Shown here: one piece after another, positions 50,219-52,229 of the stretch
How positions within the stretch are numbered: the stretch's first letter is position 1
Layout of the letters: each line of letters begins with the position of its first letter
NCBI RefSeq assembly: GCF_008868175.1
Contig: NZ_WBKT01000015.1
Location: 1 to 64,000 of the forward strand
Direction of reading: 5' to 3'
DNA length: 64,000 bases
Source of the DNA: Micromonospora sp. AMSO31t
Lineage (GTDB): Bacteria > Actinomycetota > Actinomycetes > Mycobacteriales > Micromonosporaceae
Translations under genes and position numbers: made by a program
The notes under the pieces: generated by a model
The model's input: the letters and a program-made list of their open reading frames with translations, nothing else
Database searches by the model: none
Told to the model about the DNA's origin: nothing

Positions 50219-50728
50219 TCAGAGCGAACGGGCGTAGCGGAGCTGGGGGACCAGGACGGTGCCGATGACGTCGTCGCGCTGCTCGCCGGTGGCCGTCCAG
50301 CCGCCCCGCTCGTAGAAGCGGCGGGCGGTCGCGTTGTCCCGGAGCACCCAGAGCGCCGCACGGGACCACCCCCGGGCCCGCATGGCGTCCAGGGCGTCCA
50401 CCATGAGCGCCCGCCCGGTGCCCCGGCCCCGCTCGGCCGGCTCTAGGTGGATGGCGTTGAGCAGGCCGGTGGCCGGGTCGCCCTCGTCGTCCGGCCCCAG
50501 ATAGCTGAAGCCGGCGAGCCGGCCGTCCCGCTCGGCCACGGTCATCCGGTGGTCCGCGCCCTCCCAGGTCAGCCGCTCGGTCCAGTACCGGCCCATCGCC
50601 TCCGGGGTGGGATCCGCCAGCGCCTCCGCGGGCAGGAACGACGAGTACGCCGCGACCCGGGACCGCTGGTGCAGGGCGCCGACAGCCATGAGGTCGGCGG
50701 CGGTGGCGGGGCGCAGGGAGACCGTCAC
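50219..50728 (-). CDS. GNAT family N-acetyltransferase
   Basis: A 169-residue GNAT protein. It starts [20 protein letters not shown]; the acetyl-CoA motif is [21 protein letters not shown]; and [19 protein letters not shown] completes motif B. The substrate is unknown; such Rim-like or amine acetyltransferases are common. The GTG at 50728 overlaps the RNase Z stop (GTGA), so the gene is translationally coupled to RNase Z and would share its structured leader. Confidence 0.87.
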
Positions 50729-51651
50729 CCGGCCGAGGCTACCCGGCGGGGCGGCACCTGAATCGTCATCAGGTCCTCGGCGATCACCAGCTCGCCGGCG
50801 AACGCGGAGGCCTCGTCGGCGAAGCGGCGGGGGTCCGCGTACCGCTGGGAGAAGTGGGTGAGCACGAGCGTGCGTACCCCCGACTCGGCCGCGACCCGCG
50901 CGGCCTGGCCGGCGGTGAGGTGGCCGGCCTCGGCGGCGAGGGCGGCCTCCGACTCCAGGAAGGTCGACTCGATGACCAGCAGGTCGGCGTGCTCGGCGAG
51001 CGCCCACACGCCGTCGCAGAGCCCCGTGTCCATGACGAAGGCGAACCGCTGCCCCGGTCGGGTCACGCTCACCTCGTCCCGGGTGACGCGGCGCCCGTCC
51101 AGGTCCAGGTGGCCGTCGCGGAGGAGGTGCCCGACCGCCGGGCCGGCGATGCCGTACGCGGACAGCTTCTCCGGCAGGACCCGGCAGCCGTCGGGCTCGA
51201 CGAGCCGGTAACCGTACGTCTCGATGGGGTGTCGCAGGCGGCGGGCCTCCAGCGTGCCGATGCCCAGCGTGATCCGCTGCCCGTCCGCCTCGATCGGCTC
51301 GACGGCCAGCTCGGCGGTCTCGTAGAAGCTCGACGCGTGCCGCAGCCGGGCGAAGTACTCGGCGCCCCCGGCGGGGAAGTGCACGGCCACCGGATGCGGG
51401 ACCCGGTCCAGCGAGAGCCGCTGGATCATGCCGGGCAGGCCCAGGCAGTGGTCGCCGTGGAAGTGGGTGACGCAGATCCGGGTCAGGTCGGTGGCGGAGA
51501 TCCCGCTGTGCAGCATCTGCCGCTGGCTGCCCTCGCCCGGGTCGAAGAGGAGCACCTCGTCGTCCCAGCGCAGCAGGTAGCCGTTGTGGTTGCGCTGCCG
51601 GGTGGGTGCCTGGCTGGCCGTGCCGAGCACCACCAGCTCGCGCATCGACAC
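50725..51651 (-). CDS. rnz: Ribonuclease Z
   Basis: A 308-residue metallo-beta-lactamase-fold endonuclease that trims tRNA 3' ends. The metal motif is [15 protein letters not shown] (HxHxDH, about 65-79); further ligands are in FVMDTGLCD and [10 protein letters not shown]. The N-terminus [19 protein letters not shown] is typical of the short bacterial type. The GTG at 51651 has GGAGG 8 nt upstream; an ATG two codons on is also possible. An in-frame ORF continues upstream to a GTG at 51825. The leader is long and structured (see 51675-51904). The GNAT gene follows with a 4-nt overlap. Confidence 0.92.
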
Positions 51652-51674
51652 GCTGCACCCCTCCGGATATGAAG

Positions 51675-51904
51675 CGACCCCCGGGGCTTCCGCGCTCGCG
51701 CGCGGGCCGGCTGGACTGGGCCGGCACCCCGGGGGTCGGGTGGCTGTCGTGGTTTCGCCGCACCGCTGCCACACGGTCTCGACGATGGTGCCTTGCTGCC
51801 CGCCTCGCGGCGGGCGGGATTTCACTGTCGAGGACAGCGGCTAGCGGACAGCCACCTCACGAGTCCGATTGCTATACAAGTCTGGACCACCTCCTTTCCC
51901 GTGT
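51675..51904 (-). ncRNA. Structured 5' leader RNA of RNase Z
   Basis: Reading the minus strand from the predicted start near 51904: an extended ribosome-binding sequence AAAGGAGGTGGTCCAG (51897-51882), then nested helices S1 51856-51847/51748-51739 (10 perfect pairs), S2 51840-51833/51770-51763 (8 pairs, one G-U), S3 51832-51827/51783-51778 (6 pairs) and S4 51815-51809/51804-51798 (7 pairs, GCGA tetraloop). Next is a three-way junction: outer stem 51738-51727/51686-51675 (12 perfect pairs) enclosing two 6-bp hairpins (51725-51720/51711-51706 and 51705-51700/51695-51690, the latter with a GCGA loop). The junction ends 23 nt before the RNase Z start. Some stems contain self-complementary CCCCGGGG or GCCGGC, so alternatives exist. 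I do not recognise an Rfam family. Confidence 0.5.
51841..51879 (-). CDS. Putative 12-residue leader peptide
   Basis: A TTG at 51879 lies 2 nt after the extended ribosome-binding sequence (10 nt after AGGAGG) and opens a 12-codon frame (Leu/Met-Y-S-N-R-T-R-E-V-A-V-R) that ends with TAG at 51843-51841, directly before helix S2. The codons overlap the 5' arm of helix S1, so a translating ribosome would melt it. A second short frame, GTG at 51860 to TGA at 51822, also encodes 12 residues and ends by overlapping a GTG (51825) in frame with rnz. Whether either is translated is unknown. Confidence 0.35.
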   Translation of the reverse strand: MYSNRTREVAVR

Positions 51905-51910
51905 ACCGCC

Positions 51911-51940
51911 ACGCTATCGACTTCCCGTCGGGCTCGGCAA
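51911..51940 (-). promoter_or_regulatory. Promoter of the RNase Z leader (TTGCCG-N18-TAGCGT)
   Basis: On the minus strand the -35 TTGCCG is at 51940-51935 and the -10 TAGCGT at 51916-51911, with an 18-nt spacer. This is a good match to actinobacterial housekeeping promoters (TTGNNN-N18-TANNNT) and puts the transcript start near 51904, just before the extended ribosome-binding sequence. Confidence 0.6.
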
Positions 51941-52066: not shown

Positions 52067-52229
52067 TCGCCGCCTTTCGAGCTGATGTCTCAGGCGACTC
52101 AGGGGCGGGGCCTACCGCCGCGGCCCGGCCGGGGAACGGACGGTCAGCGGTGCCCGGCGGGTCCGGGGCAGGGCCCCGGTGTGCGGCGGACCGACGAGTC
52201 GTTCGTGACATCAGCTCGAAAGGCGGCGA
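52067..52229. repeat. 23-bp perfect inverted repeat flanking a 117-bp spacer
   Basis: Arms 52067-52089 and 52207-52229 are exact reverse complements; the inner part of each reads GCCTTTCGAGCTGATGTC (18 nt, in the left-arm orientation). The spacer contains a 7-bp hairpin (52163-52169/52173-52179). The right arm ends 29 nt past the M42 peptidase stop, at the 3' end of the NAGGN operon. A related copy of the motif lies upstream of that operon at 57078-57095. It could act as a terminator or be a short non-coding repeat element. The stretch 51941-52066 holds nothing else I can identify. Confidence 0.75.

Follow-up and report, generated by a model that had tools for sequence, protein, structure and literature searches.

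The RNA analysed here is a copy of Ms_IGR-5, which is listed in Rfam as an actinobacterial sRNA gene of unknown function. It has been detected as a discrete transcript in S. lividans (PMC8079986) and S. avermitilis (PMC8780764), its transcript has been reported in M. smegmatis (PMC10454040), and ribosome-protected Ms_IGR-5 was seen by Ribo-seq in M. abscessus and M. smegmatis (PMC4974804), with the caution, given in the same work, that structured sRNAs may yield footprints without translation. The Ms_IGR-5 papers found, with the subscription literature mostly outside the search, do not mention a mini-ORF, a pseudoknot, a function or a linkage to rnz in Micromonosporaceae. The literature search also returned no functional study under the names Rv0812/Rv0813c (M. 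tuberculosis) or scr4389 (S. coelicolor), where taking scr4389 as the S. coelicolor Ms_IGR-5 is a guess from gene order alone. Among the other known systems, the leader-peptide attenuators (trp, his, cys) are similar in having a short ORF, an opposition between ribosome occupancy and downstream pairing and then a terminator-like hairpin, but in the present RNA there is no run of regulatory codons and no conserved downstream gene, and it is the terminator loop itself that is predicted to pair with the ORF. Riboswitches and T-box leaders are likewise long structured 5' leaders with a terminator-like hairpin, whereas here no conserved regulated gene is present and cmscan, even with its thresholds relaxed, matched the leader to none of the riboswitch or T-box families of Rfam, as the original prediction had anticipated, with no tRNA-like or T-box feature in it. 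Finally, 6C RNA, Ms1 and F6 are also widely conserved standalone actinobacterial RNAs, but they are unrelated in sequence and structure.

The window, i.e., the whole stretch of 64,000 nucleotides that was analysed, is from Micromonospora sp. AMSO31t (contig NZ_WBKT01000015.1), and the RNA and the rnz gene discussed below are on its minus strand. Inspection of the sequence shows a −35 element TTGCCG (51935–51940), an 18-nt spacer and a −10 element TAGCGT (51911–51916), exactly as predicted originally, giving a predicted transcript start at 51904. The GTG start of the RNase Z-like rnz CDS (50725–51651) is 253 nt farther, in agreement with the claimed leader of about 250 nt. Both promoter elements recur in the related copies, a TANNNT hexamer being present 4–7 nt ahead of the element in 275/275 copies and TTG being present at 16–18 nt spacing in 239 of the 275. 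It is noted that the rnz frame is open far upstream, through the RNA element, giving a 366-aa ORF from GTG 51825 (50725–51825, minus). This extension is probably an artefact of the high GC content, and automatic annotation could place the rnz start within the RNA element. The interval that separates the promoter from the peptidase-like gene upstream of it also contains a 34-nt inverted repeat (52067–52229; arms 52067–52100 and 52196–52229, 88% complementary and 95 nt apart). Since the core of its arms, GCCGCCTTTCGAGCTGATGTC, occurs about 10 times in the genome at no more than 2 mismatches, the repeat looks like a small dispersed MITE-like element.

The suspicion that the leader may belong to a known family proved right. 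In cmscan the sole family was Rfam RF02471, Ms_IGR-5, at 51669–51904, with 88.2 bits against a gathering cut-off of 45 bits and E = 3e-18, the match spanning the full model (positions 1–184 of 184). The RNA of the window shares with the family the 5' Shine-Dalgarno (SD) segment, the outer stem, the 3' hairpin and the single copy, and the mycobacterial copies share with it the ORF and the loop pairing described below; it differs in its length, 236 nt versus the 184-position model, because of extra apical helices. The model matches 97 of 148 genomes sampled across the class, in single copy with rare exceptions, 106 of 121 genomes of the host family and 98 of 121 genomes of one distant family, and, more weakly, genomes in other classes of the phylum. 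Hosts found by the pattern scan include Micromonospora, Salinispora, Actinoplanes, Frankia, Nocardioides, Cellulomonas, Amycolatopsis and Rhodococcus. Three genomes (G196, G216 and G357) have two adjacent matches at one place, which suggests that the RNA is tandemly repeated or expanded there. A match to Caulobacter CC2171 (16 bits against a threshold of 75), in which the SD segment alone aligns, was rejected. The locus is thus a new site of a real RNA family that is already known, and the mini-ORF and the predicted pseudoknot appear to be unreported.

The extended SD sequence AAAGGAGGTGGTCCAG (51882–51897) is a near-perfect complement of the 16S 3' end, GGATCACCTCCTTTCT, which is present in this genome, and the duplex between the leader and the 16S 3' end is computed at −33.7 kcal/mol, bearing out the claim that nearly the last 16 nt of 16S rRNA can be paired. 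In the 6.36-Mb genome AAGGAGGTGRTCC occurs only twice, once in this leader and once antisense to the end of the 16S gene itself. The SD is not that of rnz and serves instead a 12-codon mini-ORF inside the leader, which directly follows it and is missing from the original prediction: TTG...TAG at 51841–51879, encoding M-YSNRTREVAVR. The leader therefore contains a short ORF together with its own ribosome-binding site.

This arrangement is general. In a first set, 98/98 copies have a start codon 10–13 nt past GGAGG and an ORF of 12–14 codons. In a larger set of 275 parsed copies, with three further loci of the pattern scan left out, the automatic parse found ATG, GTG or TTG as start in 273, and of the remaining two, inspected by eye, L127 starts with CTG and L189 with a GTG that the parser overlooked. 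The ORF is open in essentially all copies, with indels in frame; its length is 12 codons in 265 copies, 13 in 7 and 14 in 1, and its stop is TAG in 262 of the 275, TAA in 7 and TGA in 6. Ahead of the SD-like sequence GAGGTG (codons 8–9, 51853–51858), none of the 203 distinct ORFs has an in-frame stop, as compared with 109/203 in frame +1 and 198/203 in frame +2, the many stops in frame +2 arising largely because of the conserved GTGAGG. The GAG GTG of codons 8–9 is invariant in the distinct 12-codon ORFs, synonymous sites included, and stands 15 nt before the stop in 273/275 copies, which would place this SD-like sequence 6 nt ahead of the codon that a terminating ribosome has in its P-site. 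At codons 2–4, by contrast, the entropy is similar at all three codon positions, with no third-position excess, and thus the peptide sequence is not conserved there. Judged from the aligned sequences, the constraint is on being an ORF and on the RNA sequence, with the peptide unconstrained. A functional 12-aa micropeptide of consensus M-x-x-x-R/W-T-R/C-E-V-A-A/V-R/S, to which the widespread C-terminal TREVA[AV]R might point, is accordingly most improbable, given the freely varying codons 2–4 and the invariance of GAGGTG at synonymous sites, the PREVTGC-like ends in other classes and the coincidence of the conserved codons with the pairing positions of the RNA structure described below.

All 31 matches from the other classes of the phylum have an open frame, and about half of them have ATG, GTG or TTG as start, the others having CTG, ATT, ATC, ATA or ACG at that position. 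Seven of these copies (L284, L287, L291, L293, L294, L300 and L302) keep the frame, the stop and GAGGTG with an ACG, ATC, ATT or ATA start. The odd starts may be either rare start codons aided by the extreme SD or signs of a partly decayed ORF. A programmed frameshift at the stop of the mini-ORF was also considered, and no slippery codon was recognised by eye.

For the 254-nt leader the computed folding energy is −135.9 kcal/mol (z = −5.03), with 0 of 200 shuffles as stable. The proposed stem forms as described, including its outer helix of 10 bp and the helix of 7 bp that ends in the GCGA tetraloop. The outer helix P1 joins GGTGGCTGTC (51847–51856), inside the mini-ORF, with GACAGCCACC (51739–51748), and is supported both by the fold and by covariation: 94% of its cells are paired, versus at most 58% in a slid control, and its pairs 5, 9 and 10 show several standard pair types. 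P1 encloses a central hairpin domain (51749–51846) comprising P2, P3 and apical helices, the apical part of which is lineage-specific. Already in a locus of the same genus (L028) there are differences in the apical helices and in both internal loops, AGUGAAAUCCC and AGCAAGGCACCAUC, and therefore these parts are not conserved. Thus, the expectation of conserved, covarying helices holds for P1 and fails for the apical helices, and the internal loops that had looked purposeful are among the parts that vary. Between the stem and rnz there is a second long hairpin, missing from the original prediction, the conserved, terminator-like 3' hairpin CGACCCCCGGGG...CCCCGGGGGTCG (51675–51738), which is followed by a short T-containing tail in the copies examined.

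Besides P1, the mini-ORF has a second predicted partner. The GGACN of codons 5–6 (GGACU at 51862–51866 in the window) is complementary to N'GUCC in the apical loop of the 3' hairpin (AGUCC, 51713–51717). Among 216 distinct sequences the fifth pair is Watson-Crick in 134, against 70±6.5 when shuffled, and after thinning of these sequences, which are related by descent, the covariation has p = 0.003 at 75% identity, 0.017 at 70% and 0.15 at 65%, where 11 sequences are left. The loop was detected by requiring [AG]UCC, which biases a slid control toward the unslid register and leaves the test of the fifth pair unaffected. Where codon 6 is AUN (GGAU), the loop has AUCC in 5 of 6 sequences; in one locus (L089) GGAACG is paired with CGUUCC; and the pair types switch by double changes within several families. 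In other classes GGACC occurs with GGUCC, a fourth pair type, so that all four Watson-Crick types occur. The predicted pseudoknot between codons 5–6 and the terminator loop is thus supported by covariation.

Note that in the window the minimum-energy fold, computed without the pseudoknot, has the GGUCC of the SD paired to GGAC and the start codon, and hence the RNA, when free, may adopt a different closed form. As a conserved partner, this SD hairpin (GGUCC:GGAC) was rejected: its closing pair is found in 63 versus 56 expected by chance, not clearly above it, with p = 0.06, 0.01, 0.06 and 0.58 after thinning at 90%, 80%, 75% and 70%, and the GGAU variants are tracked by the terminator loop and not by the SD hairpin.

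Based on these features, we propose a model in which Ms_IGR-5 is a translation-gated regulatory RNA that, in Micromonosporaceae, has also become the promoter and leader of rnz via read-through, a reading to which we give a probability of roughly 55%. In the model, a sigma-A-type promoter produces an RNA of about 236 nt carrying at its 5' end the near-perfect complement of the anti-SD and the 12-codon ORF, and ribosomes would load on the extreme SD. A ribosome at the start codon, with its footprint to about +18, would exclude P1 and the pseudoknot, and so would a ribosome terminating at the stop codon, which the SD-like GAGGUG, being at SD spacing from the P-site, may keep in place. Since the 5' strand of P1 is formed by codons 8–12 and the pseudoknot by codons 5–6, within the footprint at the start codon, ribosome occupancy and the fold are expected to be mutually exclusive. 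If loading fails, or once it is over, the ORF would be covered by P1 and the terminator loop and the RNA would be locked. Two states can thus be envisaged, the translated, open one and the untranslated, locked one, with the signal being translation itself and not the peptide. Since most lineages have convergent or unrelated genes downstream, the output there would have to be the RNA itself, by its stability or by action in trans.

An alternative, which we consider unlikely, is that Ms_IGR-5 is an ordinary trans-acting base-pairing sRNA, with the SD and the mini-ORF secondary, e.g., for protection of the 5' end or tuning of stability. This would be consistent with its description and detection as an sRNA in several Actinobacteria and with its being a free-standing RNA with a strong 3' hairpin and unrelated or convergent neighbours. 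If it were the case, however, there would be no need for an open frame in every lineage, for a fixed spacing between the SD and the start codon or for a fixed distance between GAGGTG and the stop, and the most conserved loop sequence, GUCC, is already accounted for by internal pairing.

The gene neighbourhood bears on a second alternative, which follows the original prediction in assigning to the leader an attenuation or autoregulation of RNase Z, namely that read-through into rnz is controlled by the leader in response to RNase Z activity, to tRNA precursors or to translation. In support of it, rnz is present just past the hairpin, on the same strand, in many Micromonosporaceae loci, with too small a space between them for another promoter. 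In the first 98 loci rnz is downstream in 2, both of the host genus, and in the larger set 29 loci have it right after the RNA, on the same strand, of which all those with known record names are Micromonosporaceae; among the loci found, adjacency to rnz is thus confined to that family. In Streptomyces and others the RNA is convergent with pdxH and in Mycobacteriales with a nitrobindin-like gene, while other lineages have NlpC/P60 neighbours or, downstream on the same strand, a histidine-phosphatase/phosphoglycerate-mutase-like gene (Pfam assignments); convergent arrangements with the pdxH, nitrobindin-like and NlpC/P60 genes are frequent. Because elsewhere the RNA stands next to other or convergent genes, it is not a regulator of RNase Z as such. 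Moreover, the same ORF and pseudoknot are conserved where rnz is not adjacent, even with convergent downstream genes, the leader lacks tRNA-like and T-box features, and the hairpin with its T-containing tail is no weaker in the rnz-linked copies (3.9 versus 3.4 T in 8 nt). An rnz-specific attenuator is therefore quite improbable. The 3' hairpin can form with or without P1, and a clear antiterminator was not seen in the folds inspected, the search being unsystematic.

The linkage itself also has a place in the translation-gated reading. As the SD of rnz (GGAGGGG, 51658–51664) abuts the hairpin, some of the rnz mRNA probably arises by read-through; in Micromonosporaceae, this genome included, the rnz start lies within tens of nt of the hairpin, where read-through from the RNA promoter is probable, and in this way the element would also be the rnz leader. 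In some genera of the family a GNAT-like ORF takes the place of rnz, resembling the ORF that follows rnz in the window (50219–50720, minus); in L104, L106 and L122 such an ORF comes right after the RNA and rnz does not intervene. This suggests that rnz was lost from, or inserted at, the spot behind the RNA. It appears that in Micromonosporaceae rnz has been set behind an old RNA gene, without a regulator of its own.

It could also be supposed that the RNA is a 30S decoy: its near-complete complement of the anti-SD would capture small subunits, productive initiation on them would be blocked by the locked ORF, and global initiation would be lowered in certain conditions. The stability of the duplex with the 16S 3' end, the absence of the motif elsewhere in the genome and the published ribosome-associated reads (PMC4974804) are in line with this proposal. 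It would be expected, however, that a single-copy RNA must be extremely abundant to titrate ribosomes, and a decoy would have no need of a full ORF ending in a conserved stop, which makes the proposal very doubtful.

Returning to the translation-gated reading, its broadest form, which we offer only tentatively, is that Ms_IGR-5 is a phylum-wide ribosome-sensing RNA, in which the initiating or terminating ribosome on the 12-codon ORF and the terminator loop compete for the same codons and the RNA, by being locked or open, reports the status of translation or of the 30S subunit to the cell. If this is true, Ms_IGR-5 would represent a previously undescribed type of standalone RNA gated by translation. 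The RNA class as such is known, and most Actinobacteria have it, Mycobacterium and Streptomyces among them. The kept mini-ORF and the covarying contact between the ORF and the terminator loop give this sRNA a concrete, testable mechanism, in which translation gates folding, and hunting for base-pairing targets alone may miss the point for Ms_IGR-5.
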